From Clostridiales bacterium (GTDB lineage Bacteria; Bacillota; Clostridia; Christensenellales; Pumilibacteraceae): a stretch of DNA of 33,966 nt. This document shows, piece by piece, positions 2-31,505 of the stretch. The translations under genes and the position numbers were made by a program. The stretch spans positions 138,442-172,407 of the forward strand of contig JAIEFT010000044.1 of NCBI GenBank assembly GCA_029066805.1, in the 5' to 3' direction. Within the stretch, counting starts at the first letter, position 1. Each line of letters starts with the position of its first letter. The notes under the pieces were generated by a model. The model ran no database searches and was not told where the DNA came from. It saw only the letters and a list, made by a program, of their open reading frames with translations.

Positions 2-2161
2 TGGTCGGACGGCGTAACGGAAGCGTTGCGAACGGATAATAATGTGCAAGCGGATATAACCGTCAGTGCAATTTTCGCTAAGAAAAAGTATAACGTAACG
101 TATGCTACCGACGATAACGGCGCGTTATCGGGTGAGGCTAAACAAGTAGTTGAATACGGTAACGACGCAACAGAGGTAACGGCGATACCGAACGAGGGAT
201 ATGAGTTTGTTAAGTGGTCGGACGGCGTAACGGAAGCGACTCGAACGGATAATAATGTGCAAGCGGATATAACCGTCAGTGCAATTTTCGGCAAGAAGAA
301 GTATAGTGTTATGTATGTTACCGATGGAAACGGTCATATACAAGGTGAATCCTTTCAAAATGTAGAGCAAGGCGAAACCGCAGCAGAAGTAACGGCGATA
401 CCGAACGAGGGATACGAGTTTAAAGAGTGGTCGGACGGCGTAAACACGGCGACGCGGCAGGACGACAGGATTTTTTCGGAGTTGACAGTAAAAGCAGAGT
501 TTCGAAAAAAGACGTATTATAAATTGCAATATCTTGTTAACGGTGAGGGCGGATCTATCCAAGGCTACACTATACAGTACGTTGCACACGGCGAGAGCGG
601 AAGCACGGTCATAGCCGTGCCGGACGAAGGCTATGAGTTTGCGTATTGGAGCGGATTCGGCATTTTCAATATAGCGGCACGAACGGATAACAATATCACT
701 CAGGATACAACTATTGTTGCAATTTTTCGGCGTAAGGAGGTGCAAGTAGAGTATAAAGGGGCTAATGGCGGGAGTATCTACTATATTAAAAATGTTCACA
801 CAATATATTACGGCGAACAAAGCTCTGTAGTGCGCGCCAACCCGTATAAGGGCTACGTATTTTTATACTGGTCGGACGGACTTAAATCAGCCGAGCGCAC
901 AGAGTATAATGTAACGAGCGATATGGTGCTGACCGCGTATTTCGGTTACAGTGCAGAATATAAGGTGAATGGGCACGGCAGAATAAAAGGCGAAATCTAT
1001 CAGGCGGTATTGCCCGACGATGATTTTTCGCAAGTGGAGGCAGTGCCCGACGAAGGGTATGCATTCGGCGGCTGGTCGGATCTGCAAGTGCAGAATTTAC
1101 GTAAAGACACAAATGCGGAACGGTGTATCGAGCATATTGCGTACTTTGAGCCTATTGTAAAAACGTTTAGCTTTGATTACGGCATAGCAAGCGGTGTACC
1201 GATGGAAAGCGCCGTTACTATCAGCAGAGAAAATATCGTACTTGAAGGATATCCTACGCCCACATTATCCGGCTATACTTTTGAGGGCTGGTACGCCGAC
1301 AGTGACTACAAATTAAAGGTGATCAACGGCGACGGCAGATACATGCTCGGGTATTACGGTTTTTCTTTGGATACGGACACTCTGTATGCGCGGTGGAAGC
1401 CGTCGGACGATAGCAGGCGCGTGTTCAAAATATTGCTCGTGTTTGTTAATGAAGTTAAAGCTAAGATATATCCCTCCCCTAAATATGGCGACGGTGTGCT
1501 ACGCGACGTTCATCACCTAATGACAACTATAGATAGGGAGTATTGCATAATTTTGCATGACTATGCAATCTACTATTTGCGCGATTGGCTGTCAGAATTA
1601 ACGGACGTAGAGATCGACGCTTATTTTACTATTGATCCGATAAGTGAGGAAAACATAAGAACCTTCCCCGATTTTTATTCGTTGATACCGGAGTCTATAT
1701 CCGAAACCAAGCCGCTATATACGTCGTATAACAGTGTTTTGTTTGGATGGAGTCTGAATAATTACGACGGGGCATTGGCAGTCAGAAATATAACAGGTTC
1801 TGCTACGGAAAAGTTCGGTAATATCCATTTAGATCATCTGTATTATTGTATAATGATTCACTACAGTAGACTTCAAGATTACTTGATAAAAATAAAAACA
1901 AATAGAATGGAAGAAGACCCATTTATTAATACATTTATTCATGAATTCATCCATACATGTGAAGCGACGTATGACTACAGTGAAATAGTAGAGTTTCATG
2001 ATTCATTTTATAATGCATACTTAAGAGAAGGCGTAGCAGCAATGGAGGCGTATAGGCTGTATCTTGTGGGACAACTGGAATATTGTGGGCAATTTTGCGG
2101 TATACCAAAAGATTTTTGGACAAACAAATGCGATAAAATGCTGTCTATAACGCATTATTGA
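2..2161 (+). CDS. Large repeat surface protein with C-terminal HExxH domain (5' truncated)
   Basis: The reading frame is open from base 2, so the gene begins upstream of the window; the TTG at base 26 is an internal leucine codon. The visible 720 residues start inside a series of about six units of roughly 71 residues with the pattern EGYEFxxWSDG...RTDNN...D.TV.AxF, typical of the divergent InlB B-repeat (Flg_new_2) family. One Listeria-Bacteroides (Flg_new) unit follows (about nt 1155-1400, GYTFEGWYADS). The C-terminal 240 residues are unlike the repeats and contain HEFIH (nt 1940-1954), an HExxH zinc-peptidase signature. An extracellular metallopeptidase presented on a repeat stalk is the inference; no third zinc ligand can be assigned by eye. 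The next gene starts 49 nt downstream and is probably co-transcribed. No anchor motif is seen at the C-terminus. Confidence 0.85.
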   Translation, partial: WSDGVTEALRTDNNVQADITVSAIFAKKKYNVTYATDDNGALSGEAKQVVEYGNDATEVTAIPNEGYEFVKWSDGVTEATRTDNNVQADITVSAIFGKKKYSVMYVTDGNGHIQGESFQNVEQGETAAEVTAIPNEGYEFKEWSDGVNTATRQDDRIFSELTVKAEFRKKTYYKLQYLVNGEGGSIQGYTIQYVAHGESGSTVIAVPDEGYEFAYWSGFGIFNIAARTDNNITQDTTIVAIFRRKEVQVEYKGANGGSIYYIKNVHTIYYGEQSSVVRANPYKGYVFLYWSDGLKSAERTEYNVTSDMVLTAYFGYSAEYKVNGHGRIKGEIYQAVLPDDDFSQVEAVPDEGYAFGGWSDLQVQNLRKDTNAERCIEHIAYFEPIVKTFSFDYGIASGVPMESAVTISRENIVLEGYPTPTLSGYTFEGWYADSDYKLKVINGDGRYMLGYYGFSLDTDTLYARWKPSDDSRRVFKILLVFVNEVKAKIYPSPKYGDGVLRDVHHLMTTIDREYCIILHDYAIYYLRDWLSELTDVEIDAYFTIDPISEENIRTFPDFYSLIPESISETKPLYTSYNSVLFGWSLNNYDGALAVRNITGSATEKFGNIHLDHLYYCIMIHYSRLQDYLIKIKTNRMEEDPFINTFIHEFIHTCEATYDYSEIVEFHDSFYNAYLREGVAAMEAYRLYLVGQLEYCGQFCGIPKDFWTNKCDKMLSITHY

Positions 2162-2210
2162 TAGTGCGTTTGATATGATTGATATTATTTTACCAAGGAG
2201 GGTTTAAGTA

Positions 2211-5200
2211 ATGAAAACAAGGACAAAAACGAGTATTTTACTTGCGTTGGTAATGGCGGTTGCCGTGGCTATCGCCCTACTGTGCACACAAGTAAAAACC
2301 AACAAGGCATTTGCCGACGAAGTGGATGCGGAGCTTTCCGCCGAATTCAGTGTATCTGATGAAATCGAGCGCGTTGATGCAGAATATGAATTTATTGTGC
2401 TAAACGACACCGAATGCAGTGTGAGAATCACTAATTGCGGTGATGTAACAATAGCGCTCATTCCGGATTATACGGAAATCGACGGCAAACAGTATACGGT
2501 AACCGAAATCGACGACAACGGATTTATGTCGTCTCCTAATCTGATTCGAGTCGATTTGCGTAATACGATCAAGCGAATCGGGTACGGCGCTTTTGCCGAT
2601 TGTGCAAAGCTTAAAAGAATCAACCTGGCAAATGTGCAGGAAATCGATGACTGCGCTTTTGAGGAATGTCCCGAATTGGCAGAAATATTAATACCTGCAT
2701 CCGTCAAGAAAATCGGTACATACATTTTTCGTGGTAATAATACGAAGGTGATGGTGCGTGCGGAGGCTGTGGGCGAGCAATGGTCGGCTTCGTGGAATAA
2801 GAGGAATGACAATCAAGATGTGGAGTTTAGCAGTAAATATAAACATCCGATGGAATTGAAGACTGTTTACGATACTACCGCACGTTCTGCACAGCCTATT
2901 GGATACGCTATTGCCGAAGGACAGCCGCGTAATGAAGATTATTATGACCCGATAACAGAAGATAATTATGAAGATAAAACCCATAAATTTGAAGAAAGCA
3001 TATTTATTCCTGCGGAGTATAATGGCAAACCTATAATGAAAATAGCCGATGACGCGTTTTACGACGTATCGTTTAGTCAATTGATTGTAGAATATGCGCA
3101 AGAACCGTTGACGATAGGGAATAGGGCCTTTACAAATACCAAAGGGGAAAGTATTGTAATAAATCGCCCTGTACGCTTTTGTAATGATAATAATGTAGAA
3201 ACTAAAAATATATTCAGTCGTTCGTCTGCACGATCAATCGTGTTGCCTAATAGTGTAACTAAGCTTGTTGATTCTATGTTTGCGGGCTGTTCAAGATTGA
3301 GTAATATCTTTTTTGCAGAGCCTGTTAACATAAATTTTTCTTACACAGATTTAGACTCTTATTTGGACGCACAAAATAAAGAAGATTTAGACGTATATTT
3401 GCAAAACAAGGTTAACGGCGATGACGATTTAGGTTATGAGCAAAAAGTAACGCGCCTAAGAGAGCTATGTATTATTAAGAAATTAACTAGAGATTGTGAA
3501 TCTGGCGTCGTTGATATACCCGGCTCGTCAGGCGTTATTGCAATCGGAAATAACGTATTTCAAGGAACGACTGCAATATCGGAGCTGCATTTGTACGATA
3601 CCATTCAATCGGTCGGTTCTACTATTTTGTCCGGGTGGGATAATGACAAACAAATCGTATATGTGTATATTGATAACAATGATGAAGATGCCGAAAGTAA
3701 TTATGATAACTGGCACACTAAGTGGCAAAGCAGTTTTACAAATGTTAAAGTGATCAAAACTTATTATACCGTTACTTTTGATCCCGATGGCGGGAAATTT
3801 GTGGATAGCGATAAAGCTACTATCCATAAACTCATCAAATACGGAAATCGGATAGGTGACCTGCCGGAGGTCGAAAAGTTAGGCTATCAGTTTATTGGAT
3901 GGAAGTCGGAAGACGGAACGGAATATAAGTCTTCGACTATTTATCAAGAATACAAGGATATAACGTTAAAGGCGAAATGGGAGCGTATTATATATACTAT
4001 AACATTTGACCCGGAAGGCGGGGAGGGCGGTACGAAAATCGGTTATGCATTTATGAACGGACCGTTGCCCGACGCGGTCGCTCCTACAAAGTTGGGGTCT
4101 ACGTTTAGAGGCTATTATACGGAAAGGAATGGCAATGGAAAAATATATTACCATTACAATATGGATAAGGCATGCATTTGGACGCATGACGGGGATTTAA
4201 CCTTATATGCAGACTGGGAGATAAACGCGTATACTGTAAATCTACATAGCGGATATGACAAAAATGAAGTGCTTGTAAAAATACCCGTAACTTATGATCA
4301 AGGGATGCCGCTTTATCTGCAAGCGCCCCAACGGCTTGGATACACATTTATGGGTTATTATGACGAAATGAACGGCGCGGGCAATAAGTATTACAATGCA
4401 GATATGACCAGCGCTAAAGAATGGAATAAAGCAGATAACGGTGATTTGTATGCGGATTGGAAGTTGATTGACTATAAAATTAACTATGAATTGAACGGTG
4501 GTACAAATAAAGGAAATAACCCCGACACATTCAATATTGAGAATGCGGGAATATTAAACGACGCAACTCACGAAACGCTGTACTTTGACGGCTGGATATG
4601 TGAAGGGGAAAAGATAACGAGCTTAGTCGGCATAACAAAAGATATAACCTTAACGGCAACTTGGACGGATGTAAAAACTATTCGCGTTACTAAGGCTTTT
4701 TCTACTCTGACGGTTGACGTTCCCAAGGCAAGCATTATTATGGATTGTGCTTTTTCCGATAATTGCAACATCGTATTTACTTCCAAAGTTGTTACGGCTA
4801 TGATTAGCGGAAACGGGCGCGTGTACAATATGTCTATTATCATCTCAAACAGAGATACGGATTTTGGATTGGTTTTGAATCATATCAGTGTTGTAGCTAC
4901 GTCATCATTCTGTGCTATTAATATGTCGTCTCAGCAAACGCTATACTTGATGACTGTCGGAGTGGTTACAATACATGGCTATTCGCCCACTAACGGGCAC
5001 GGGAAAGCTGCAATCTCTTGCCATAATCTTGTAATCGGTTCTCTGGCTAATTACGAGCATACCTTAACTGTTAACGGCGGCAATGGCTCTGACGGTAAGG
5101 ATGGTAAGGACGGTAAGGATGGTAATAATGGCGGCGTCGCCATCGAAGCCGAAACCGTTATAATTACTTGTGACAACGTGACTATAGTGGGCGGTTCGGG

Positions 5201-5504
5201 AGGAAAAGGCGGAAGTAGTGTTATGACAATGCCCGATGGTAAAAAAATCACTGGGACCGGATTTAAAGGATTTGGCGGATATGGCGTTAGTCCGGTAAGC
5301 GGCGAAGTTTATGTGACGGAAAATTTCAGTCATGTGAATCTTAAAAAAGGTCAAGATGGTAAAGATGGTAGCGGACAAGGCGGTCTAATAAGACCGCCGA
5401 GACCCGAAGATTTGAGTTACACTACACCGGTCGTAAAGCCGTGGAATCCAAATTTACCTATTACTCCGCCTATAGGAGGCATTATTCCCACATCTAATCC
5501 GTAA
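2211..5504 (+). CDS. Secreted BspA-type LRR / Flg_new repeat protein with collagen-like tract
   Basis: A 1097-residue secreted protein. AAGGAGG (2195-2201) precedes the ATG; residues 1-36 form a signal peptide (basic start, long hydrophobic core, A-F-A-D-E cleavage region). Order of parts: two stretches of BspA-type leucine-rich repeat (LRR_5; residues about 75-195 and 260-510, e.g. 'IKRIGYGAFADCAKLKRINL'), four Listeria-Bacteroides Flg_new repeats (about 520-825, each with YTVTFDPDGG-type starts and GYxFxGW), a serine/isoleucine-rich region that may be a beta-solenoid, a Gly-Asp-Lys collagen-like run (GKDGKDGKDG, around nt 5083-5130) in a glycine-rich zone, and a proline-rich tail. No LPXTG, GW or SLH anchor is visible, so attachment is unknown. 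The family is linked to adhesion or extracellular binding; no ligand can be named. It follows the truncated repeat protein by 49 nt, probably in one operon. Confidence 0.9.
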   Translation: MKTRTKTSILLALVMAVAVAIALLCTQVKTNKAFADEVDAELSAEFSVSDEIERVDAEYEFIVLNDTECSVRITNCGDVTIALIPDYTEIDGKQYTVTEIDDNGFMSSPNLIRVDLRNTIKRIGYGAFADCAKLKRINLANVQEIDDCAFEECPELAEILIPASVKKIGTYIFRGNNTKVMVRAEAVGEQWSASWNKRNDNQDVEFSSKYKHPMELKTVYDTTARSAQPIGYAIAEGQPRNEDYYDPITEDNYEDKTHKFEESIFIPAEYNGKPIMKIADDAFYDVSFSQLIVEYAQEPLTIGNRAFTNTKGESIVINRPVRFCNDNNVETKNIFSRSSARSIVLPNSVTKLVDSMFAGCSRLSNIFFAEPVNINFSYTDLDSYLDAQNKEDLDVYLQNKVNGDDDLGYEQKVTRLRELCIIKKLTRDCESGVVDIPGSSGVIAIGNNVFQGTTAISELHLYDTIQSVGSTILSGWDNDKQIVYVYIDNNDEDAESNYDNWHTKWQSSFTNVKVIKTYYTVTFDPDGGKFVDSDKATIHKLIKYGNRIGDLPEVEKLGYQFIGWKSEDGTEYKSSTIYQEYKDITLKAKWERIIYTITFDPEGGEGGTKIGYAFMNGPLPDAVAPTKLGSTFRGYYTERNGNGKIYYHYNMDKACIWTHDGDLTLYADWEINAYTVNLHSGYDKNEVLVKIPVTYDQGMPLYLQAPQRLGYTFMGYYDEMNGAGNKYYNADMTSAKEWNKADNGDLYADWKLIDYKINYELNGGTNKGNNPDTFNIENAGILNDATHETLYFDGWICEGEKITSLVGITKDITLTATWTDVKTIRVTKAFSTLTVDVPKASIIMDCAFSDNCNIVFTSKVVTAMISGNGRVYNMSIIISNRDTDFGLVLNHISVVATSSFCAINMSSQQTLYLMTVGVVTIHGYSPTNGHGKAAISCHNLVIGSLANYEHTLTVNGGNGSDGKDGKDGKDGNNGGVAIEAETVIITCDNVTIVGGSGGKGGSSVMTMPDGKKITGTGFKGFGGYGVSPVSGEVYVTENFSHVNLKKGQDGKDGSGQGGLIRPPRPEDLSYTTPVVKPWNPNLPITPPIGGIIPTSNP

Positions 5505-5837: not shown

Positions 5838-6029
5838 TTTTTCGAGCTATGCTCGATGATAGACTAATAAAAGGATGAGATTCCTCGCTGCGCTCGGAAT
5901 GACAAGAGAGGGGGGAGCTATGCTCGATGGTTGACTGATAAAAGGATGAGATTCCTCGGTGGGCAAAAAATGCTCGGAATGACAAAGAGTGGGGGAGTGA
6001 GCTATGCTCGTTGTTGATTGACTAAGAAT
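5838..6029. repeat. Cluster of short palindromic repeats
   Basis: Three copies of GAGCTATGCTCG (near 5843, 5915 and 6000) alternate with two copies of an imperfect palindrome beginning GAGATTCCTCG and ending GCTCGGAATGACA (5877-5904 and 5948-5984; the second has a longer loop). The same palindrome recurs at 23401 and 31422 and in variant form at 19613-19722. Translated, these repeats give the spurious peptide CHSERSEESH, well known from dispersed repeats in many bacterial genomes. No gene is supported between 5811 and 6103. Confidence 0.8.
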
Positions 6030-6030
6030 G

Positions 6031-6099
6031 ATAAGGTCGCCCCTCATCCGTCAGTCTTATGACTGACACCTTCCCTCACGGGGAAGGTAATAAGGTCGC
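6031..6099. repeat. Double-hairpin element flanked by 10-bp direct repeats
   Basis: ATAAGGTCGC occurs at 6031-6040 and again at 6090-6099. Between the copies are two hairpins: GTCAGTC-TTAT-GACTGAC (6050-6067) and CCTTCCC/GGGAAGG (6069-6087). The flanking repeats could be a target duplication of a small non-autonomous element. The second hairpin may also help end transcription, but no T-run follows for the minus-strand ilvD-like gene. Confidence 0.6.
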
Positions 6100-8384: not shown

Positions 8385-8876
8385 GTGAAAGTTGTTTCCA
8401 AGCAGAATAATTCACATATGTGTTTGATTTGCGGCATGGATAACACCGCGGGCGTGCATGCGCAGTTTTACAATATGGAAGACGGCTCGGTGGGCGGACT
8501 GTTTACGTTCCGCTCCGAACATCAGAGCTATCCGGGCAGAGTGCACGGCGGCATGCTCGCCACCATGGTGGACGAGCTTGCGGGTAGAGTGCTGTGGACG
8601 GATCATCCCGACAAAATCGGCGTGACTATGGATATTAACGTAAAGTACCGCAAACCCGTGCCGTACGACGTGCCGCTTAAGGGCAGGGGCGTATACCTGC
8701 AAAAGCTGTCCCGCGCGTACTCCGCCAAGTGCTACATAATGAATATGGACGGCGAGGTGCTGGCAGAGGGCGAAGCAAAGTATTTGATCATGCCCGCCGA
8801 AAAAATAACCGACGCGTCGCTGGGCGAGGAATTGGATATTTACGTTCCCGACAACGTGACCGAAATAGATTTTTAG
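8385..8876 (+). CDS. PaaI-type hotdog-fold thioesterase
   Basis: A 163-residue hotdog-fold protein of the 4HBT/PaaI thioesterase family, expected to hydrolyse acyl-CoA or a related thioester. The helix motif HGG (H54-G55-G56) followed by 'MLATMVDELAG' (D63, E64) is the typical active-site segment, and the 'VNVKYRKPVPYDVPL'-like strand region follows. The N-terminus has an extra CxxC (MCLICGMDN, C13 and C16), seen in some members. Start GTG 8385 is chosen because AGAGGTGA precedes it and a consensus promoter ends at 8351; the frame upstream to 8271 would precede the transcript. The real substrate cannot be read from the sequence. Confidence 0.88.
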   Translation: MKVVSKQNNSHMCLICGMDNTAGVHAQFYNMEDGSVGGLFTFRSEHQSYPGRVHGGMLATMVDELAGRVLWTDHPDKIGVTMDINVKYRKPVPYDVPLKGRGVYLQKLSRAYSAKCYIMNMDGEVLAEGEAKYLIMPAEKITDASLGEELDIYVPDNVTEIDF

Positions 8877-8967: not shown

Positions 8968-9909
8968 ATGGGGCTTTTTGACGGCAACTATACATCGTCC
9001 AATGACGATTTGGCGCTTGCGCCCAAGGCTGGCGACGGTAAGCTGTACAATATGATAAGGCTTGCGGCGATAACGGTTATTCTTATTGCCGCCGTGCTTT
9101 TAATACTGGAAATTCCTATTTTTGGTATATTGGAATTAGGCACTACCGCGAACGGAATTATTATTTCAATAGGCGTCGTGGGCGTGGGCGGATTTGTCGC
9201 TCTGCCGTGGGTGCGCGTGTTTGAAAGCTTTAAGGACAAGCGTTACAAGATTACCGCCATAGCGTTTTTGGCAATGGTCGGCGTGTGCGTTATTCTGTGG
9301 ATAGTTTGCGCATGGCTGATAGTTGGGCTTATAGATAAAGGCATGAGCGGTGCGAACGAAGATATACTCAAAGACCTTCTTAGCTCGCTCAATGTTATTC
9401 GTGTTGCGATTATTATATCATTGCAGTTTATTGTCGCGTCGTATATCGCCAAAAATATTATAAAGTACAACAAAACGCTTTTGCCGTATCAGGTTTTGGC
9501 GGGTGCGTCTCAGCTTTATATAGACTTTTATGTTTGCCTTTTGCTCACGGCAGTCACCATTACGGTTGACGGCGCAGAGCTCAGCAGTACGGCGGTCTTT
9601 CTTACAAACATGTGGGTGCACGCACTGCTTGCTATATTTATCGTTATAGCTATATTTCCCAATATGGTGTTCAGGCGCGTCGATAGGCGCAGACTGCTCG
9701 AAGCGAGAGCGGCGGCGCAAAACGGCGCTGCCGACGATAAGCCCGTCGCCGATAATGCTACAACCGATACAATTAAAGACAGTGCCGATAATGTCGATAA
9801 CGCGCCCGTAGACGAAAAGCTGAACAAGATAAAAGAGCTTCTCGATAAAGGCTTAATTACGCAAGAGGAGTATGACAAAAAACGCGAGGATATTTTGAAC
9901 AGCATTTAA
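8968..9909 (+). CDS. Membrane protein with C-terminal SHOCT domain
   Basis: A 313-residue integral membrane protein. About six hydrophobic segments lie between residues 30 and 235 (e.g. 'LAAITVILIAAVLLILEIPI'). A charged, alanine/aspartate-rich linker follows, then a SHOCT motif at the very end (LNKIKELLDKGLITQEEYD, residues about 285-313), a short helical hairpin often found at protein termini and thought to mediate oligomerisation. AAAAGGAATAGAAAG precedes the ATG. It has its own promoter and terminator. Transport or sensing function cannot be assigned. Confidence 0.82.
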   Translation: MGLFDGNYTSSNDDLALAPKAGDGKLYNMIRLAAITVILIAAVLLILEIPIFGILELGTTANGIIISIGVVGVGGFVALPWVRVFESFKDKRYKITAIAFLAMVGVCVILWIVCAWLIVGLIDKGMSGANEDILKDLLSSLNVIRVAIIISLQFIVASYIAKNIIKYNKTLLPYQVLAGASQLYIDFYVCLLLTAVTITVDGAELSSTAVFLTNMWVHALLAIFIVIAIFPNMVFRRVDRRRLLEARAAAQNGAADDKPVADNATTDTIKDSADNVDNAPVDEKLNKIKELLDKGLITQEEYDKKREDILNSI

Positions 9910-9930
9910 TTGATTGAGCAATCAATATAA

Positions 9931-9967
9931 AAGGACAGTGCGATTATTCGAACTGTCCTTAATTTTT
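9931..9967 (+). terminator. Rho-independent terminator
   Basis: AAGGACAGT / ACTGTCCTT stem (9931-9939, 9952-9960) with 12-nt loop, then AATTTTT. A separate 16-bp palindrome TTGATTG-AG-CAATCAA (9910-9925) lies between it and the stop codon. Confidence 0.8.
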
Positions 9968-9991
9968 AATGTTAGAAATGTCATCAAATGC

Positions 9992-10020
9992 TTGCAAATG
10001 TAATCAAAAGTGTGTATAAT
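9992..10020 (+). promoter_or_regulatory. Promoter of the RelB/PIN toxin-antitoxin operon
   Basis: TTGCAA (9992-9997), 17-bp spacer, TATAAT (10015-10020). The ribosome site follows after 5 nt, so the leader is very short. Confidence 0.75.
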
Positions 10021-10038
10021 ATATAAGAGGTGATTAAA

Positions 10039-10317
10039 ATGGCAAACAATATGATACAATTCAGGGCGGATGAAGATTTGAAATTACAGGCTTCTGTAAT
10101 TTGCGGTAAAATCGGGATCGACATTCCGTCGTATTTGCGCATGTGTTTGGCGCGCATGGTGAGCGAAAACGGCATTCCTTTTAGCATGTGCGTGAATGAA
10201 CCCGACAATATCGGTATTGCCGCAATGCGTAAGGCTCAGCGGATAGCCGAACGGCGTGGTATTTCCGACATGTCTTTAGATGAGATAAATGCAGAAATTG
10301 CAAAGGCGAGAAAATAA
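10039..10317 (+). CDS. RelB/DinJ-type antitoxin
   Basis: A 92-residue RelB/DinJ-like ribbon-helix-helix antitoxin. The N-terminal strand MIQFRADEDLKLQA and the helices 'ASVICGKIGIDIPSYLRMCL' match the DNA-binding part of the family; the tail (MSLDEINAEIAKAR) is the helical toxin-binding part. It should neutralise the following PIN toxin and repress their shared promoter. ATG 10039 is preferred to GTG 10030 because AAGAGGTG then lies at normal distance; with GTG it would overlap the start. The toxin gene begins 1 nt after its stop. Confidence 0.88.
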   Translation: MANNMIQFRADEDLKLQASVICGKIGIDIPSYLRMCLARMVSENGIPFSMCVNEPDNIGIAAMRKAQRIAERRGISDMSLDEINAEIAKARK

Positions 10318-10318
10318 T

Positions 10319-10732
10319 ATGAAGTATTTCGCCGTTATCGATACGAACGTTGTCGTATCGGCTTTTCTTAAAAGCAATTCCATTCCGGACACGTTGCTCG
10401 ACCTTGCGCTTGCGGGCGTGATCGTTCCGCTGTTGAACGATGAAATTGTAACCGAATATAAGGATGTTTTGTCGAGAGATAAATTCGCATTCGGTGATGA
10501 GCTTGTAAATGACTTTATAAAGCAAATACAAAACGTCGGGCTGTATATCAATGCCGAAAAATCCGATATAGAATTACCGGACACTAAAGATATAGTTTTT
10601 TATGAGGTCGTTATGGAAAAAAGAAAAACCGATGATGCGTATTTAGTTACAGGCAATATTAAGCATTTTACAGGGGAAGCGTTTATTGTTACACCTAGAG
10701 AAATGCTGGAGATTATCGCAAAGGATTATTAG
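10319..10732 (+). CDS. PIN-domain toxin (COG1569-type ribonuclease)
   Basis: A 137-residue PIN-domain protein of the TIGR00305/COG1569 putative toxin family; such proteins cut RNA with Mg2+. Acidic residues of the fold are present: D8 in VIDTNVVVSA, E46 in DEIVTEYKDVL, D91 in PDTKDIVF and D105/D106 in TDDAYLVTGN (N113). ATG 10319 follows the antitoxin stop by 1 nt with only a weak ribosome site, which implies translational coupling; the frame extends to 10289 inside the antitoxin but without a better start. The pairing of a RelB-type antitoxin with a PIN toxin is known in Firmicutes. The unit ends at the hairpin near 10767. Confidence 0.88.
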   Translation: MKYFAVIDTNVVVSAFLKSNSIPDTLLDLALAGVIVPLLNDEIVTEYKDVLSRDKFAFGDELVNDFIKQIQNVGLYINAEKSDIELPDTKDIVFYEVVMEKRKTDDAYLVTGNIKHFTGEAFIVTPREMLEIIAKDY

Positions 10733-10766
10733 ACAGGATACATAGTAGAATTGTAATAAAATAAGT

Positions 10767-10794
10767 AAGACGGCTCGAAATCGAACCGTCTTTT
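10767..10794. terminator. Terminator between convergent genes
   Basis: AAGACGG-TCG / CGA-CCGTCTT stem with one mismatch and a 4-nt loop, followed by TTTT. It serves the PIN gene and possibly the convergent phosphatase gene. Confidence 0.75.
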
Positions 10795-10825
10795 GTGTTG
10801 GTTACAATAAAACTTTTACTATTTA

Positions 10826-12253
10826 TTAAAGCAATTCGGTAAAGTCATTTATGCATAGCAGTGCACGAGTGTCTTTTATGCCGCCGACGGCAATTACTTT
10901 TGCTCCTGCATTGAGCGCGGCTTCTATCCCGGATGGCGCGTCTTCAAACACTAAGCAGTTTTCGTGTTTTGCGCCAAGCTTAGCCATTACCGTAGCAAAA
11001 ATATCGGGCGCGGGTTTTTGGGGTAAATCAGTTTGCCCGTCTATTACCGCGCCGAACATATCCGATAGTTCGAGGCTGTTAATAATGTTTGTCGTCGTTT
11101 TGGATGACGAACCTACGCCGACTTTTACGTAATTTCTTTTTAGGCTTTGCAAAAATTCGGTTGCTCCCGATATTATATCGCACTTGTTTATTTTTGTAAT
11201 TGCTTCGGCGAATGTTTGGTCTTTTATTTTGGCGATTTCCGCTTTTTGACTATCAGTAAATTTTGCGCCATGCTTGGTTTCCGCAAAAGCTATAATGTTG
11301 GCTTTTCCTGTGCTTTTTAGCGGAATATAGTCTTGGGGCGTTAAGTCAACGCCGACTGACTTAAAAGCTTTGTTCCAAGCGATGTAATGAAACTTTTCGG
11401 TATCGGCTATAACGCCGTCAAAGTCGAATATGCAAGCGTCAAACGAATACGTTTTGCCATCTATCGTTATGTTGTAGTTTTGAGCTAAGCTGTCGCGAAT
11501 GAGATTGGATAGAGAATCGTTTGCCGCTACAACAACGCCGTCATCACCGAGCTTGTACGGCGTGCCGTTCAGATTGGTAATTATTGCTCCGGCTTCTTTA
11601 CAAATTACTATTCCGGGCGCTATGTCCCAACTGTTTTTTGTAATGACGACCGTGCCGTGCGTTCTGCCTTGTGCAACGAATGAAAAATCCATGCACGCAG
11701 CGCCGAACATGCGTATTTTAGCTATTTTAGGATACAGCCTTTTAATTGCTGTATGTTGAATATCGGCTATGCGGTTGTCTTTAGTATGCGGATAATCACC
11801 AAAGCTCAATATTGCATTATTCAAAGTAATATTACTGTTGACGGTTATTCTTTCTCCGTTATAATAGCATCCGCCGCCCTTGGTTGCATATATCCATTCG
11901 TCAAGGTGGGGGAGATATACAATACCAAGTACGATTTCGTTATTAACAATCAGCGAGCATTGCATTCCGTAAAGCTTTGAACCACTAGCCATGTTGCAAG
12001 TCCCGTCGATAGGGTCAATAGTCCAAGTCCGGCCTACGATGTTCGCCGAAGCTGAAAATTCTTCGCCGTGGATGCGGTCGTTCGGGTAAGCTTTGCATAT
12101 AGCTTCGGTTAATTGCTTTTCGATGTTGATATCTATATCAGTAACCAAATCGAACGCGCTTTTCTGTGCGGTGTGTAGTTTGATATTGCCATGATTTTTG
12201 TATGCCGAGAGCATCTCTGCCTTGATGAATTCAAGTTCGTTTGAATAATTCAT
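10826..12253 (-). CDS. Fusion of inositol-monophosphatase-like and HAD phosphatase domains
   Basis: A 475-residue fusion. Residues 1-260 are an inositol monophosphatase-family domain (also includes CysQ-type 3',5'-nucleotide phosphatases): metal-site residues E64/E65, D80-P-I-D83-G-T and W209-D210-IAPG are all present. Residues 270-475 are a beta-phosphoglucomutase-like HAD domain: nucleophile motif DFDGVIADT (D277, D279), GVGSSSKT, KPAPDIF and VFEDAPSGIEAA. Both halves look catalytically complete, so it could be a two-step phosphatase on sugar, inositol or nucleotide phosphates. Its start lies 1 nt after the stop of the upstream TIR gene (12255), so the two are co-transcribed and probably work together. 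The substrate is unknown. Confidence 0.88.
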   Translation of the reverse strand: MNYSNELEFIKAEMLSAYKNHGNIKLHTAQKSAFDLVTDIDINIEKQLTEAICKAYPNDRIHGEEFSASANIVGRTWTIDPIDGTCNMASGSKLYGMQCSLIVNNEIVLGIVYLPHLDEWIYATKGGGCYYNGERITVNSNITLNNAILSFGDYPHTKDNRIADIQHTAIKRLYPKIAKIRMFGAACMDFSFVAQGRTHGTVVITKNSWDIAPGIVICKEAGAIITNLNGTPYKLGDDGVVVAANDSLSNLIRDSLAQNYNITIDGKTYSFDACIFDFDGVIADTEKFHYIAWNKAFKSVGVDLTPQDYIPLKSTGKANIIAFAETKHGAKFTDSQKAEIAKIKDQTFAEAITKINKCDIISGATEFLQSLKRNYVKVGVGSSSKTTTNIINSLELSDMFGAVIDGQTDLPQKPAPDIFATVMAKLGAKHENCLVFEDAPSGIEAALNAGAKVIAVGGIKDTRALLCINDFTELL

Positions 12254-12254
12254 G

Positions 12255-13289
12255 TCACGCCTCCAGAAGCGTTGATTCGCTTTTTAAGTATTCGTATGAT
12301 TTTTCGCAAAACTCATATACGGGTGATACCGCTTGTTTTTCTATGAAAAATGACGGATTGTTTATGCCTTGTATGTTGTTGGAATAATACTGTAAGATCA
12401 AATAATCGTCTACGAATATCATGTTCATACGTGGCGGCTTGTCGTACAGATATAAAGATATGTTTTCGCGGTTTTCCTGCAAGGAGTCTTGTATGTCGAG
12501 CGCCGTTTCGATATTGACGTTAGTGATATTTTTTATGCGGTTGGTGCGTAAACCTTCTTCTTGCTCGCGCAAAGGAGTGTACTTGCCGTTGGGGTCTAAA
12601 AACAGTATTTCTATTTTTCCACCGCGCGCTATACAGTTTCGTATGGCGCTTGGATTTATGCGTGCCGTAAGCTCCGAATTGGAAATACCAACAGCGCGTA
12701 TATGCTTTGCCGTTGCTACCAAATCGTCAAAATGACAACTCTGGTTCATGGACGCGCGTGTTGCAAATACTTCCTTGATTTCCGTGGTAATCTGCGTTTC
12801 ATTCCAAGAGCGCGTATCATGTAGGCTTTCGGTAATCCAGTTGTCAACGATTTCGAGCGTATTTTGTATGTTACCGTTATCGTAAAAATGCGTGCGCTTG
12901 GAAAAAAGCTCATGAAGGAACGCCTCGTCGCCTTTATGCCAATTCCCGCACGCAAGGATTTTTGCATCCTTTAATTTAGCGTCGCCGAGTTGGGTCAATG
13001 CGTAAAATGCGTCTATCTCTGTAGAAAGTTCGTAATGTATGCGCGAGTCTATATGCTTGTTCTCATCGGTGTGTATAGTAGGAGTGCACACCAGTAAGAA
13101 CAGTCTCGACTTCATTACTTCTATAATATTTGCTTTATATGTATCTTTTGCCGCACGCGGAAAAAAGAAACACTTTTTGCCGTGCTTAGTAAGATATTCG
13201 TAAATCTTATCGGCAAACTCGGCAGAGCTTCCTTGCTCGTAGCTTCCGTGGTATGCTATAAAAATGTCATATTCTTTCTTTAATTTCAT
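12255..13289 (-). CDS. TIR-domain protein with C-terminal PLD-like/DUF5919-like region
   Basis: A 344-residue protein. Residues 6-100 resemble a TIR domain: strand YDIFIAYHGS, helix, strand KKCFFFP, helix, strand RLFLLVCTP, then 'IHYELSTEIDAFYAL' with E87 at the place of the NADase glutamate. Residues about 185-335 (AVGISNSELTARINP, GGKIEILFLDPNG, MNMIFVDDYLILQYY) resemble phospholipase-D-like or DUF5919 folds without HKD motifs; such domains may bind nucleotides or act as sensors. The family is common in NAD-cleaving antiviral effectors and in signalling. It is the first gene of an operon with the IMPase-HAD fusion. GAGGGGC precedes the ATG and a TTGATT-N17-TACAAT promoter lies upstream. A defence role is inference; the C-terminal assignment is tentative. 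Confidence 0.75.
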   Translation of the reverse strand: MKLKKEYDIFIAYHGSYEQGSSAEFADKIYEYLTKHGKKCFFFPRAAKDTYKANIIEVMKSRLFLLVCTPTIHTDENKHIDSRIHYELSTEIDAFYALTQLGDAKLKDAKILACGNWHKGDEAFLHELFSKRTHFYDNGNIQNTLEIVDNWITESLHDTRSWNETQITTEIKEVFATRASMNQSCHFDDLVATAKHIRAVGISNSELTARINPSAIRNCIARGGKIEILFLDPNGKYTPLREQEEGLRTNRIKNITNVNIETALDIQDSLQENRENISLYLYDKPPRMNMIFVDDYLILQYYSNNIQGINNPSFFIEKQAVSPVYEFCEKSYEYLKSESTLLEA

Positions 13290-13315
13290 AATGCCCCTCT
13301 GTATTTGATATATCT

Positions 13316-13344
13316 ATTGTATAATATATCGTCATAAAAATCAA
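13316..13344 (-). promoter_or_regulatory. Promoter of the TIR / IMPase-HAD operon
   Basis: Minus-strand TTGATT (13339-13344), 17-bp spacer, TACAAT (13316-13321), about 27 nt before the TIR start codon. Confidence 0.6.
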
Positions 13345-13375
13345 TAGTTGTAATGCGTAAAATTTGAGTAAATAT

Positions 13376-13404
13376 TTGAGTGCTTGAACTTAAGCCTTTA
13401 TTAC
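13376..13404 (+). promoter_or_regulatory. Possible promoter of the short XRE gene
   Basis: TTGAGT (13376-13381), 17-bp spacer, TATTAC (13399-13404). It is divergent from the TIR operon promoter, only about 30 bp away. Confidence 0.45.
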
Positions 13405-13436
13405 AATAAGAAGAAGATAGGCGAGCGGAATACAAG

Positions 13437-13595
13437 ATGTCACAAGCCGATTTAGCAAAACGTCTTGGTGTAACTCAGCAATGCGTTAGCGAATGGGAAC
13501 TGAATAGAACAGAGCCTACGCTGACTTATCTTTGTATGATGGCGGATGTTTTTGAAATATCGCTCGACGTATTGTGCGGTAGGGTGGAATTGTAA
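13437..13595 (+). CDS. Short XRE helix-turn-helix protein, possibly 5'-truncated
   Basis: A 52-residue Cro/CI-type helix-turn-helix protein: 'SQADLAKRLGVTQQCVSEWE' is the DNA-binding core, followed by helices ending SLDVLCG. Most of helix 1 is missing. The frame continues upstream for nine codons (EEDRRAEYK) to a TAA but has no start codon, while another frame reads KKKIGER just before it, which hints at a frameshift in a once longer gene. No clear ribosome site precedes ATG 13437. It may therefore be a remnant or a genuine minimal regulator. It stands divergent from the TIR operon and could regulate it. Confidence 0.55.
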   Translation: MSQADLAKRLGVTQQCVSEWELNRTEPTLTYLCMMADVFEISLDVLCGRVEL

Positions 13596-13609
13596 AATAG
13601 TAAAATAAC

Positions 13610-13738
13610 AAGAAAGAGGATAGGCGAGTGTCTATCCTCTTTTGCGTTGCAAATACGGTGATTTCTATTCTATACGAAAACCTCCACATTTCAAGCAGAA
13701 AAGGGGAGGTTTTCGTGTCGCAACCATAGGAACGGTGT
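13610..13738 (-). ncRNA. Predicted short leftward RNA with two strong hairpins
   Basis: A consensus minus-strand promoter (13745-13773) would start RNA near 13738. The RNA would fold an 11-bp perfect stem CGAAAACCTCC / GGAGGTTTTCG (13675-13685 with 13705-13715, 19-nt loop) and end at a terminator-like hairpin (AAGAGGATAG / CTATCCTCTT, 13613-13642), giving about 125 nt. The only small frame inside (20 codons from 13727) lacks a ribosome site. The loop and arm CTCGCCTATC can pair over 10 nt with the leader of the short XRE mRNA (13416-13425), and a CCUCC stretch could pair with ribosome sites. This is inferred from sequence only. Confidence 0.45.
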
Positions 13739-13744
13739 GCATAA

Positions 13745-13795
13745 ATAATAACATAGAATATTCTATATGTCAAGCATATTCATAGAAAATTCTAT
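13745..13795. promoter_or_regulatory. Leftward promoter with XRE-type operator palindromes
   Basis: On the minus strand TTGACA (13768-13773) and TATTAT (13745-13750) are 17 bp apart. ATAGAATATTCTAT, a perfect 14-bp palindrome (13753-13766), fills the spacer. A second near-palindrome ATAGAAAATTCTAT (13782-13795) lies 29 bp to the right, just before the XRE gene at 13807. The arrangement fits a repressor that controls both the leftward RNA and itself. Confidence 0.7.
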
Positions 13796-13806
13796 AGAAT
13801 ATATGT

Positions 13807-14025
13807 ATGGATAATATTTCGTTTTCGGAGATTTTAGAAGAATTTTTGTTTGAGCATAGCCTTACGCAAACTGTATTTGCGCAAAGAATCGGGATAAAGC
13901 AAAGCCAGGTTAGCGAGTGGTTAAAGGGTAAGGCAAAGCCGGGATATGATATGTTAAAACGTATGTCCGTAGAATTTGGCGTGTCGGCAGATTATTTTTT
14001 GGGTATTACTGAAAAGGCTAAATAA
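13807..14025 (+). CDS. XRE-family transcriptional regulator
   Basis: A 72-residue Cro/CI-type repressor consisting almost only of the helix-turn-helix domain ('TVFAQRIGIKQSQVSEWLKG', then LKRMSVEFGVSADYFLG). No ribosome site precedes the ATG; the TATAGA-like -10 region lies only 8 nt upstream, so the mRNA may be leaderless. Operator-like palindromes ATAGAA-N2-TTCTAT sit directly upstream (13753 and 13782), which suggests autorepression and control of the leftward RNA. It ends at a strong terminator. Target genes beyond these are unknown. Confidence 0.85.
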   Translation: MDNISFSEILEEFLFEHSLTQTVFAQRIGIKQSQVSEWLKGKAKPGYDMLKRMSVEFGVSADYFLGITEKAK

Positions 14026-14040
14026 AAATCGTTCAACACA

Positions 14041-14080
14041 AAACGAGGCTGTCTTTAATTGAGACAGCCTCGTTTGCTTT
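14041..14080 (+). terminator. Rho-independent terminator
   Basis: Perfect 14-bp stem AAACGAGGCTGTCT / AGACAGCCTCGTTT (14041-14054, 14062-14075) with a 7-nt loop, followed by GCTTTT. Confidence 0.85.
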
Positions 14081-14148
14081 TGCAATTATTCGGGTGTAAT
14101 GCTTGATTACTTACAAACGTTTACACACGACATACGCGTAGCCTTTGG

Positions 14149-14673
14149 CTACTTTCCGAAGTAGCGTTTAAGCATGCCGGCAAAGCCTGCGCCGTGGCGC
14201 GCTTCGTCCTTAGCCATTTCGTGTACGGTGTCGTGGATAGCGTCGTAGCCAAGCTCTTTTGCGCGTTTTGCAAGCGCGAGCTTGCCTTCGCATGCGCCCG
14301 CTTCCGCAGCGGCGCGAAGCTCGAGGTTCTTTTTGGTGGAATCGGTCACGACCTCGCCCAAAAGCTCGGCGAATTTGCTTGCATGCTCGGCTTCCTCAAA
14401 AGCGTAGCGTTTGTAGGCTTCGGCAATTTCGGGATAGCCCTCGCGCTCGGCAACGCGCGCCATTGCAAGGTACATACCTACCTCGGTGCATTCGCCCATG
14501 AAGTTGGCTTTAAGTCCTTCGGTGACTTCCTTGTCCTCGACCTTGCCGTCGCCGACATGGTGCTCGCATGCGTACTTAGCTTCGGTTACGGGCACAAACT
14601 TTTTCGCCTTGCAAACGGGGCAGACGTCAACGCCGTCCTCTACGATCTCACCGCATACTGCGCATCTTTTCAT
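14149..14673 (-). CDS. Reverse rubrerythrin (NADH peroxidase-type)
   Basis: A 174-residue rubrerythrin with the rubredoxin-like domain first (CxxC at C4/C7 and C18/C21) and the ferritin-like di-iron domain after it ([31 protein letters not shown] supply the Glu/His ligands). This reversed order is typical of the 'reverse rubrerythrins' of clostridia, which reduce hydrogen peroxide and help anaerobes survive oxygen in the cytoplasm. The start at 14673 is chosen over the longer frame to 14742 because AAGGAGA lies just before it and the promoter occupies 14714-14742. Confidence 0.92.
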
Positions 14674-19323: not shown

Positions 19324-19542
19324 ATGAAAAAGGTATACAAGCTGCAAGACTTGGACTGCGCCAATTGCGCCGCTAAAATGGAACGGGCAATAGCCAAAAT
19401 CGACGGCGTGACTGCTGCCAACGTAAGCTTTATGTCGCAGCGTTTGACTATCGAAGCCGACGAGGACAAATTGGATGGCATTGTTAAAGAGGCTGTCAAG
19501 GTTTGCAAAAAAATCGAGCCCGATTGCAGGATTATTCTATAA
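19324..19542 (+). CDS. Stand-alone heavy-metal-associated (HMA) metallochaperone
   Basis: A 72-residue ferredoxin-like HMA domain with the metal-binding CxxC in LDCANCAAKME. GGAGGGTATT precedes the ATG; the frame back to 19267 overlaps the operator and is not used. In most zinc/cadmium pumps this domain is the N-terminal part of the ATPase; here the pump (19786) lacks it, so this protein probably delivers metal to the pump. The two genes are split by a 240-bp repeat element. Confidence 0.9.
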   Translation: MKKVYKLQDLDCANCAAKMERAIAKIDGVTAANVSFMSQRLTIEADEDKLDGIVKEAVKVCKKIEPDCRIIL

Positions 19543-19770
19543 TGCAGAATTAAGAATGCAGAATTATGGGTGATAATTGCTTGCTTTCTATGCGGCGGTT
19601 CGCCTATAAAATGTTGAGACTCTTCGTGGCGCGCTTAAAGCGCTTGCTCTGAGTGACAAAAGAAATTTTTGTAACTAATCTGCTATATTTTTGTCATTCC
19701 GAGTGTAACGAGGAGTCTCAACTTTAGTGCCACGTAAGCGGCTCATTCATAATTCATAATTCTGAATTAA
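19543..19770. repeat. Inverted-repeat element inserted in the metal-resistance operon
   Basis: Outer arms: GCAGAATTAAGAATGCAG (from 19544) against ATTCATAATTCTGAATT (ending 19768), imperfect inverted repeats. Inner arms: GTTGAGACTCTTCG (19613) against CGAGGAGTCTCAAC (19709-19722), together with TGAGTGACA / TGTCATTCC. The whole can fold into a long hairpin and resembles a small non-autonomous element; no protein-coding frame is supported. Confidence 0.7.
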
Positions 19771-21778: not shown

Positions 21779-21914
21779 GTGTATAGCATAGCCGAATGGA
21801 TAATATCTATTTTGGCTTGCGTATTTGCAAGAAAGTTTAATCATTGAAATTCTCAAACATATTTATTATGTCTTTTGAGCTATGGGAAACTTTCTCATAG
21901 CTCGTTTTGTTTTT
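21762..21914 (+). promoter_or_regulatory. Ribosome-mediated attenuator of the ABC-F gene
   Basis: Four elements are seen. Segment 1 TTTCTTGC (21768-21775, in the leader peptide) pairs with segment 2 GCAAGAAA (21827-21834). Segment 2/2' GAAAGTTT (21831-21838) can instead pair with AAACTTTC (21888-21895) in the terminator loop. The terminator itself is GAGCTATG / CATAGCTC (21877-21884, 21896-21903) followed by GTTTTGTTTTT. A stalled ribosome covering segment 1 would favour the antiterminator. Confidence 0.7.
21877..21914 (+). terminator. Attenuator terminator hairpin
   Basis: Perfect 8-bp stem GAGCTATG/CATAGCTC extended by wobble pairs, then a T-rich run, ending 1 nt before the GGAGGA ribosome site of the ABC-F gene. 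Confidence 0.85.
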
Positions 21915-21923
21915 GGAGGAAAT

Positions 21924-23390
21924 ATGGCTATTATAAAAGTTGATGATCTTACGTTTAGTTATCCGACGAGCGACGAGCACATTTTCGATAGCGTCAGCTT
22001 CAGTATAGACACCGATTGGAAGCTCGGGTTTGTGGGCAGAAACGGCAGGGGCAAAACCACGTTTCTGAATCTTTTGATGGGCAAGTACGAATACAGCGGC
22101 AAAATAACTTCGTCGGTGCGGTTCGACTATTTTCCGTATGACGTGAATGACAAGAACACTATGACCGAGGACGTTTTGCGCGAGGTCGCGCCGTCCGCCG
22201 TGGACTGGGAATTTATGCGCGAGCTGTCGTACCTTGACGTCGGTGCGGAAGTTCTGTCCCGTCCGTTTTGCACGCTGAGTAACGGCGAGCAGACTAAGGT
22301 ATTGCTTGCCGCGCTGTTCCTTAACGAAGGGCGGTTCTTGCTGATCGACGAGCCTACAAACCACTTGGACACGGCGGCGCGCGGCATTGTTGCGGCGTAT
22401 CTGCGCAAGAAAAAAGGGTTTATATTAGTTTCGCACGACCGCGAGTTTTTGGACGGTTGTGTCGATCATATTCTTTCGCTCAACCGCGCAAACATAGACG
22501 TAGTGAGCGGAAACTTTTCGTCGTTCATGACAGACTTCGAGCGGCAGCAGGATTACGAGCGCAGAGAGAATGCGCGGCTACAGACCGATATAAAGCGCTT
22601 ACGCATTGCAGCAAGGCAGACCGCGACGTGGGCGGATAAAGTGGAAGCGTCAAAAATCGGTGCAACCGATAAAGGATACGTAGGGCACATGGCGGCAAAA
22701 ATGATGAAGCGCGCAAAGGTCATAGAAACCCGTCAGCAAAAGGAAATAGAGCAGAAGTCCAAGCTATTAAAAAACGTGGAGTATACGCACAAGCTGAAGA
22801 TTTCGCCGCTCGAGTACCGCGCGGAAACGCTTGTCGTGTTCAGCGGCGTGGCGGCTAAGTATGACGGCAGGGAAGTTATGCGCTCTGTATCGTTTAGCAT
22901 TAAACGCGGCGATAGAATCGCCATAGAGGGCAAAAACGGCAGCGGCAAGAGCAGTCTGTTAAAGCTGCTGTGCGGGCAAAATATAGAGCATTCGGGCGAT
23001 ATTAAGATAGGCTCTAATCTTGTAATATCCTACGTGCCGCAAGACACTTCGTTTTTGCGCGGCACGCTGAAAGAGCTTGCCGTAGACAGCGGAATAGACG
23101 AGAGCTTGTTTAAGAGCATTCTTCAAAAAATGGGGTTTGATAAAAATCAGTTCGACAAGGACATTTCCGAATTTTCGGGCGGGCAAAAGAAAAAGACTCT
23201 TATTGCAAAAAGCCTTTGCAGTCGCGCACACTTATATGTTTGGGATGAGCCGCTCAACTTTATCGACGTTTTTTCGCGCATACAGATAGAGGAGTTGCTT
23301 ACCGAGTTCAGCCCGACCATGATTTTCGTCGAACACGATAAGGCGTTCCAAAACAAAATCGCAACAAGCGTGGAGATAATTCGGAATTAA
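21924..23390 (+). CDS. ABC-F ribosome-protection ATPase (Lsa/CplR-like)
   Basis: A 488-residue ABC-F protein with two ATPase domains and no membrane part; such proteins bind the ribosome exit site and dislodge lincosamide, pleuromutilin or streptogramin antibiotics. Walker A GRNGRGKTT and GKNGSGKSS; signatures LSNGEQ and FSGGQ; Walker B 'FLLIDEPTNHLD' and LYVWDEPLNFID. The inter-domain linker (about residues 190-280) is long and charged, as needed for drug-site access. Length and sequence resemble Lsa/CplR. ATG 21924 with GGAGGA is chosen because the earlier in-frame ATG 21882 lies in the terminator stem. Attenuated by the leader upstream. Confidence 0.9.
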   Translation: MAIIKVDDLTFSYPTSDEHIFDSVSFSIDTDWKLGFVGRNGRGKTTFLNLLMGKYEYSGKITSSVRFDYFPYDVNDKNTMTEDVLREVAPSAVDWEFMRELSYLDVGAEVLSRPFCTLSNGEQTKVLLAALFLNEGRFLLIDEPTNHLDTAARGIVAAYLRKKKGFILVSHDREFLDGCVDHILSLNRANIDVVSGNFSSFMTDFERQQDYERRENARLQTDIKRLRIAARQTATWADKVEASKIGATDKGYVGHMAAKMMKRAKVIETRQQKEIEQKSKLLKNVEYTHKLKISPLEYRAETLVVFSGVAAKYDGREVMRSVSFSIKRGDRIAIEGKNGSGKSSLLKLLCGQNIEHSGDIKIGSNLVISYVPQDTSFLRGTLKELAVDSGIDESLFKSILQKMGFDKNQFDKDISEFSGGQKKKTLIAKSLCSRAHLYVWDEPLNFIDVFSRIQIEELLTEFSPTMIFVEHDKAFQNKIATSVEIIRN

Positions 23391-23510
23391 GAATGAGGAT
23401 GAGATTCCTCGCTTCGCTCGGAATGACAAAAAGAAATGGTTGCAGTTGTTATGCCGCACCTCCTTTTGGCACTCAGAGACAAAGGCGAAGAGTCTCAACC
23501 GCTATCCGCT
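23391..23510. repeat. Dispersed palindromic repeat after the ABC-F gene
   Basis: GAATTAAGAATGAG followed by the GAGATTCCTCG...GCTCGGAATGACA palindrome (23401-23428) and, about 60 nt on, CACTCAGAGACAAAGG...GAGTCTCAAC, an inverted variant of the unit at 19613. Nothing coding is supported between 23391 and 23541. Confidence 0.7.
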
Positions 23511-31378: not shown

Positions 31379-31505
31379 ATTAAGAATTAAGAATGCAGAA
31401 TGCAGAATGAGGAATAAGGTTGAGATTCTTCGCTACGCTCAGAATGACAAATTATTTAATAAGGGCGCAAGCGCAGTCCGAAACTATTCACTTTTCACTA
31501 TTATC
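31379..31505. repeat. Dispersed repeat before the pyruvate kinase gene
   Basis: AATTAAGAATTAAGAATGCAG-type tandem pieces, then the GAGATTCTTCG...GCTCAGAATGACA palindrome (31422-31449) and three TTTCACT/TTCACT motifs (31486-31512). No gene is supported here. Confidence 0.75.

Follow-up and report, generated by a model that had tools for sequence, protein, structure and literature searches.

The locus

The stretch of DNA analysed here, referred to as the window, comprises 33,966 nucleotides (nt) from a Clostridiales bacterium (contig JAIEFT010000044.1, positions 138,442 to 172,407), and carries a pair of minus-strand genes coding for a TIR-domain protein and a phosphatase. The first gene (12255..13289) encodes a protein of 344 amino acids (aa) in which a TIR domain (12813..13280, residues 4-159) is followed by a DUF5919 domain (PF19319; 12321..12695, residues 199-323). 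The second (10826..12253) encodes a 475-aa fusion of an inositol-monophosphatase (IMPase) domain (11498..12214, residues 14-252) with a HAD domain (10886..11434, residues 274-456). A preliminary description had named this adjoining pair, and the open reading frames (ORFs) of the window confirm it, with a spacing of 1 nt. A weak promoter-like site (13316..13344; 9/12 consensus matches) lies 5' of the TIR gene and a terminator-like hairpin (10767..10792; 11 pairs, 6 of them G-C) lies 3' of the phosphatase gene, both on the same strand as the pair.

Conservation and distribution of the pair

The two-gene module, present in some gut-type bacteria, is conserved and accessory. Ten distinct TIR-DUF5919 loci are available: the window, seven from a scan of genome contigs in which the TIR-DUF5919 protein is 58-85% identical to that of the window (alignment A1), and two diverged full-length relatives that were new in a search of the order, L041 (33%) and L042 (30%). 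An IMPase gene directly follows the TIR-DUF5919 gene in all ten, at a spacing of -8 to +3 nt, and the IMPase active-site motifs are kept in 10/10; homologues of both proteins, whose adjacency the preliminary description had proposed to check, are neighbours in each of the ten. The HAD part varies: it is fused to the IMPase in four loci (the window, L014, L015 and L017, of which L015 ends at a contig edge inside the HAD), is encoded by a separate, overlapping next gene in two (L016, L019) and is absent from four (L018, L020, L041, L042), the last of which rule out HAD as an essential partner. The unit is TIR-DUF5919 plus IMPase, with HAD as an optional domain or gene.

No TIR-DUF5919 gene lacking an IMPase was found among the ten loci. 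Three related IMPases without TIR-DUF5919 (L052, L086, L087) group with the TIR-linked IMPases in the tree (support 80/86, not starred). L052, a fused IMPase-HAD in the same-genus genome G019, is 60% identical and lies downstream of an EF-Tu gene with no TIR. In the family, sampled as 74 genomes, four have the fused IMPase-HAD and three of these four have the TIR gene. TIR-DUF5919 was not seen without the IMPase, and the IMPase sometimes occurs without TIR; the dependence thus seems to run one way, from the TIR gene to the IMPase, as would suit an effector in need of a controller. In L086 (1604-3916) the TIR-less IMPase gene sits between flavin-nucleotide-binding (PNPOx-like) and cysK-like genes, as judged by eye, company that possibly hints at the substrate of this group of IMPases.

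TIR-DUF5919 matches occur in 8 of the 396 genomes of the order, five of them being the window or loci already found; the eighth, L043, encodes an otherwise different protein of 953 aa that has the TIR part in common. Full-length TIR-DUF5919 is thus present in 7/396 genomes, a rare and patchy distribution. Samples of the class and of the phylum each gave a single match, the window's own genome (1/391 and 1/398), and PF19319 occurs in one of 299 phylum-sample genomes.

At the corresponding site, the pair is missing, and the flanks lie near each other, in all eight same-genus genomes examined whose two flanks share a contig (G001, G002, G003, G005, G010, G013, G014, G015; in G011 the flanks lie on two contigs). 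In G013, G014 and G015 the flanks are adjacent without the segment, and the left flank includes the gene at 8968-9909; in G001, G002, G003, G005 and G010 the left match stops at 8806-8875, that gene being missing or diverged. The match to G013 and G015 ends at 9977 or 9908 and restarts at a terminator-like hairpin (13591-13655). The accessory segment bounded by these two genomes (9978..13590, ∼3.6 kb) holds, besides the TIR-IMPase pair and one short XRE ORF, plus-strand genes for a RelB antitoxin (10030-10317; Pfam RelB, 2.4e-11) and a PIN toxin (10289-10732; PIN_3, 3.8e-14), which together span 10030..10732. The wider site between thioesterase and rubrerythrin genes (8968-14149 in the window; also L105 and L106) is variable in content: the window has a SHOCT-domain gene with RelB/PIN and the TIR-IMPase pair, G013 has the SHOCT-domain gene next to what looks by eye like a YefM/RelE-like pair, G015 has no more than the SHOCT-domain gene, and in five other genomes this gene too is missing or diverged.

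The TIR domain and its glutamate

The front part of the 344-aa protein has a TIR fold, and it keeps a glutamate of the catalytic type, as had been proposed. The residue is E91 (codon 13017..13019, minus strand): it is invariant in all nine rows of alignment A2, and a glutamate stands opposite it in each of the seven distant TIR proteins whose tblastn alignment reaches the site, the remaining three of the ten compared having alignments that stop at residue 75. E87, the residue first put forward as catalytic, is lost in both diverged rows (L041 and L042) and is rejected in favour of E91. By its position after strand C, and from what is known of the TIR family, E91 is presumably the catalytic residue, an assignment that conservation makes likely, and the protein probably destroys nicotinamide adenine dinucleotide (NAD).

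The TIR protein has no match among phages, nor among viral contigs in a pattern scan, and no PHROGs family matches it. Against solved structures there is no match by sequence, and the A2 profile gives a single hit at the level of chance (E=6.5), on a barrel designed de novo. Four plasmid records match the protein, in the DUF5919 part only.

DUF5919, a proposed sensor

The C-terminal domain had been suggested as the sensor of the protein, and the domain, identified as DUF5919 (Pfam E=2.6e-8; 34.3 bits, cut-off 23.5), does look like one. The diverged L042 scores 21.7 bits, just below that cut-off. A structure model of residues 160-344 (predicted template-modelling score (pTM) 0.75) has a phospholipase D (PLD)-like fold, and its best matches among solved structures are TrmBL2/TrmB, SauUSI, FAM83B and NucT; the likeness to the TrmB/TrmBL2 regulators and to FAM83 speaks for a sensor. 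Active PLD enzymes carry an HKD motif with the spacing HxKxxxxD. DUF5919 matches in fold and has RxNxxxxD instead, at the place of the motif (R287-x-N289-x4-D294; 12408..12431, minus strand; alignments A2 and A4). R287 and N289 are kept in every row of A2 and RxNxxxxD in all four rows of A4; D294 is replaced by Glu in L042, as aligned, and N289 by Thr in the HEPN-DUF5919 protein L040. A literature search on DUF5919 by name returned no relevant paper.

The domain is also the best-conserved part of the module in seven of nine relatives. Identities to the window for TIR, DUF5919, IMPase and HAD are, in this order, 81, 87, 68 and 54% in L014; 70, 87, 67 and 50% (HAD partial) in L015; 57, 73, 54 and 41% in L016; 60, 75, 56 and 44% in L017; and 58, 63, 57 and 45% in L019. 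For the loci with no HAD, the first three values are 59, 71 and 58% (L018), 52, 66 and 59% (L020), 31, 38 and 53% (L041) and 37, 28 and 37% (L042). For comparison, the window's copy of the core protein IlvD has 61 and 60% identity to those in the L014 and L015 genomes (G033 and G054), and EF-G of G019 matches its counterparts in G000, G033 and G054 at 91, 81 and 78% identity, the last over 376 residues. By these alignments the constraint on DUF5919 in the near loci equals that on a core protein, a pattern that fits an unchanging ligand and speaks against a viral one that evolves fast; recent transfer could give the same numbers, and the far loci L041 and L042 depart from the pattern.

The phosphatase

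The IMPase domain scores 158 bits against PF00459 (cut-off 27) and has the family motifs DPIDGT, GEE and WD (in general form [GS]EE, DP[IVL]DGT and WD), together with two motifs of its group, GD[YF] and R[MH][FIL]G[AS]A. With SuhB, HisN and CysQ it shares the fold family and metal-site motifs; it differs in scoring below the NCBIfam equivalog cut-off of each and in having GD[YF] at a position where no comparison IMPase has it. None of the three names therefore applies, the CysQ type of the preliminary description included (TIGR01331, 62.1 bits against an equivalog cut-off of 228.8). The HAD domain has a DxD motif and resembles beta-phosphoglucomutase; its score of 150 bits lies below the equivalog cut-off of TIGR01990 (189.4). 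In PHROGs, a HAD family matches the phosphatase.

The group to which this IMPase belongs has 23 members: those of the ten TIR loci, the three solitary ones, four linked to actinobacterial DUF5919 and six further ones from actinobacterial plasmids. GD[YF], at residues 151-156, is present in 23/23 of them and in 0/21 comparison IMPases, and R[MH][FIL]G[AS]A in 23/23 and one of the 21 (L053); the group was defined after the alignment and a first tree had been viewed, so the motif test is not independent, and the comparison set has few members, some of them on long branches. As to common descent or separate recruitment of the pair in the two phyla, the motif suggests one clade, which the tree does not recover, and in approximately unbiased (AU) tests a single clade of GD[YF] IMPases is not rejected (p 0.08 with all rows, 0.10 minus eight long rows).

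Five of the six further plasmid IMPases come from a kinase/nucleotidyltransferase operon. An operon conserved on actinobacterial plasmids (L033 1-6504; also L034, L035, L036, L038 and L039) begins with HAD and two proteins of unknown kind, continues with a nucleotidyltransferase (NTP_transf_5 in L033), an AAA-type kinase and an IMPase, and ends in most cases with dTMP kinase and APH, in L038 with a phosphotransferase; it looks like a phosphometabolite pathway.

DUF5919 and IMPase without TIR

Five plasmid records match the actinobacterial DUF5919 protein P0001, which itself has no match in phages or viral contigs. Its N-terminal ∼130 aa are not TIR: no Pfam family matches above cut-off, and the part is XRE-like by eye. 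In four of the five records, a small sample, an IMPase gene directly follows the TIR-less DUF5919 gene (three cases annotated, the fourth via reading frames). These Streptomyces and Nonomuraea pairs resemble that of the window in having DUF5919 and then an IMPase with GD[YF], and differ from it in the front part, in an upstream GntR gene (seen in all three records that carry annotation), and in IMPases without HAD. Because the IMPase also follows DUF5919 where TIR is missing, it seems to be tied to DUF5919 more than to TIR.

A third front domain is found on a Streptomyces replicon, where L040 (3335-4615) encodes a fusion of a SAV2148-like HEPN domain (PF18725, 412 bits) with DUF5919 (PF19319, 294 bits). 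PMC3710099 lists the SAV_2148 type as an inactive HEPN joined to a 'Phospholipase D Nuclease'. L040 is like the window protein in placing DUF5919 behind a conflict-type domain, and unlike it in having HEPN in place of TIR, no IMPase beside it and Thr for N289. The front domain is thus exchanged (TIR, an XRE-like part, HEPN) while DUF5919 stays, as for a sensor. PADLOC, run on seven further TIR-DUF5919 or DUF5919 proteins, gave no match except the candidate model PDC-M34B for L040.

Surroundings of the pair

The defence-island neighbours claimed earlier are not borne out as a rule at the other nine loci. Among 87 ORFs within 6 kb of the pair at the ten loci, PADLOC (threshold 1e-5) reports 25 families, each hit by one ORF, and 23 of these were traced. 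The sole clear candidate defence protein is a Fic protein (L019:12119-13009), which accounts for six families (PDC-S04, 1.3e-110). Eight fall on a helix-turn-helix protein (L017:11213-11935), three on a DEDDh-type exonuclease (window:16231-16797), two on an ABC transporter (L020), two on a small Csa3-like regulator (window:18866-19210), one on a flavoprotein of L014 and one on an L041 ORF; PDC-S33 and dCTPase are left untraced to an ORF. Pfam finds 132 families in the same ORFs, and the 25 of these that were listed are mostly housekeeping enzymes.

Elsewhere in the window, an ABC-F protein near the Lsa family (21882-23390; 702 bits, cut-off 750) is a possible ribosomal protection protein. Short dispersed sequences matching same-genus genomes (5873-5905, 6031-6087, 19540-19564, 23397-23431 and 31361-31451) are perhaps a repeated hairpin element. 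Positions 26-5504 code for two large proteins of surface type, which contain leucine-rich repeats and Listeria-Bacteroides repeats.

How the pair may work

By analogy, the pair would be a TIR effector that contains its own sensor and has an enzyme dedicated to it as partner. DUF5919, with its PLD-like fold devoid of the catalytic HKD residues, would bind some small phosphorylated molecule of the cell; TIR would be the output, cleaving NAD+ once the sensor is engaged; and the IMPase, with HAD where present, would dephosphorylate the ligand or its precursor, so that TIR is kept silent and is reset. A metabolic disturbance, as in phage infection, is a conceivable trigger. Ligand removal is assigned to the IMPase because it accompanies DUF5919 with or without TIR, and because the TIR protein is not found without the IMPase. 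This reading, metabolite sensing by DUF5919 with NAD cleavage as the output and the IMPase as the enzyme that removes the ligand, is given a probability of about 0.4.

Several observations weigh against it. In the fold comparison, matches to the metabolite sensor TrmB tie with those to nucleases (SauUSI, NucT), and confidence in the full-length model is middling (predicted local distance difference test (pLDDT) 69, pTM 0.46). In L041 conservation is higher in the IMPase (53%) than in DUF5919 (38%), and in L042 it is higher in both TIR and IMPase (37%) than in DUF5919 (28%). No IMPase lies by the HEPN-DUF5919 gene of L040 within the 8.6 kb fetched, three related IMPases stand without TIR-DUF5919, and the maximum-likelihood tree separates the IMPases of the two phyla. 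No recurring defence neighbours emerged from the 87 ORFs around the ten loci; the other nine loci differ in their surroundings, which look mostly housekeeping.

A more general form of the same idea is rather doubtful. Here, in a new kind of conflict module, a pseudo-phospholipase-D DUF5919 would guard the level of a phosphorylated metabolite, a dedicated IMPase (with HAD) would erase the ligand continuously, and a failure of erasure would release the exchangeable front domain, which might be TIR for NAD loss, and a DNA-binding-like part or HEPN elsewhere. The phosphatase might then act as an antitoxin by clearing a metabolite, and DUF5919-IMPase might serve as a plug-in unit of control in both Bacillota and Actinomycetota.

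Thoeris consists of a TIR gene plus one enzymatic partner, and the present pair is like it (ThsB TIR and ThsA) in being a small operon of TIR and a second enzyme with an accessory distribution. With this layout, the TIR fold and the conserved glutamate, signalling might run forward: DUF5919 would sense infection, TIR would make a signal of the ADP-ribose type from NAD+, and the IMPase(-HAD) would be the downstream processor or effector, acting on that signal or on nucleotides. PMC9503650 describes phosphatases that are coupled to immune genes handling ADP-ribose. This is unlikely, since IMPases also follow TIR-less DUF5919, where that protein makes no TIR product. The partners of Thoeris are, moreover, SIR2-SLOG, Macro or membrane effectors, whereas here the ThsA-type effector is replaced by an IMPase(-HAD) and the TIR protein has its own C-terminal PLD-like domain; neither protein of the pair matches PADLOC, and the pair is not a Thoeris system. 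Nor is it SPARTA (TIR-APAZ with a short Argonaute): DUF5919 stands in place of APAZ, the partner is not an Argonaute, and neither protein has an APAZ or Argonaute match in Pfam or PADLOC. The literature searches, with subscription journals mostly outside their reach, found no published description of a TIR-DUF5919/IMPase pair, in agreement with the earlier statement that no described system has it.

Less likely again is a toxin-antitoxin system by contact, in which the IMPase would be a protein antitoxin that binds and silences TIR-DUF5919, with the phosphatase activity taking second place. The genes are tightly set and partly overlapping, the effector gene is never seen without its partner, and the site holds toxin-antitoxin pairs (RelB/PIN; YefM/RelE-like in G013); against this, the effector gene comes first, the active-site motifs of the partner are kept in every locus, and IMPases persist without TIR. 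The least probable alternative is metabolic regulation free of conflict, the pair controlling a pool of phosphorylated sugar, polyol or nucleotide with TIR as an ordinary nucleotide enzyme: the beta-phosphoglucomutase-like HAD, the core-like conservation of near-relative DUF5919, the mostly housekeeping neighbours and the kinase/nucleotidyltransferase operons of related actinobacterial IMPases favour it, but the pair is rare and patchy, it is absent from this site in all eight same-genus genomes examined, and its company is TIR, HEPN and toxin-antitoxin genes.

Against the preliminary description, the proposed mechanism keeps the pair, the glutamate and the sensor, and gives up E87, CysQ and the defence island. 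The phosphatase had been thought to act on the TIR product or a related metabolite; its association with TIR-less DUF5919 makes the DUF5919 ligand the likelier substrate of the two.

Implications

TIR systems are usually explained by the product of the TIR domain, and the genomic evidence here points to the sensor side. If ligand removal by the IMPase is true, the substrate of the IMPase would reveal the trigger and give DUF5919 a function, and the clearance of a small molecule by a phosphatase would join the ways in which bacteria restrain suicidal NADases.

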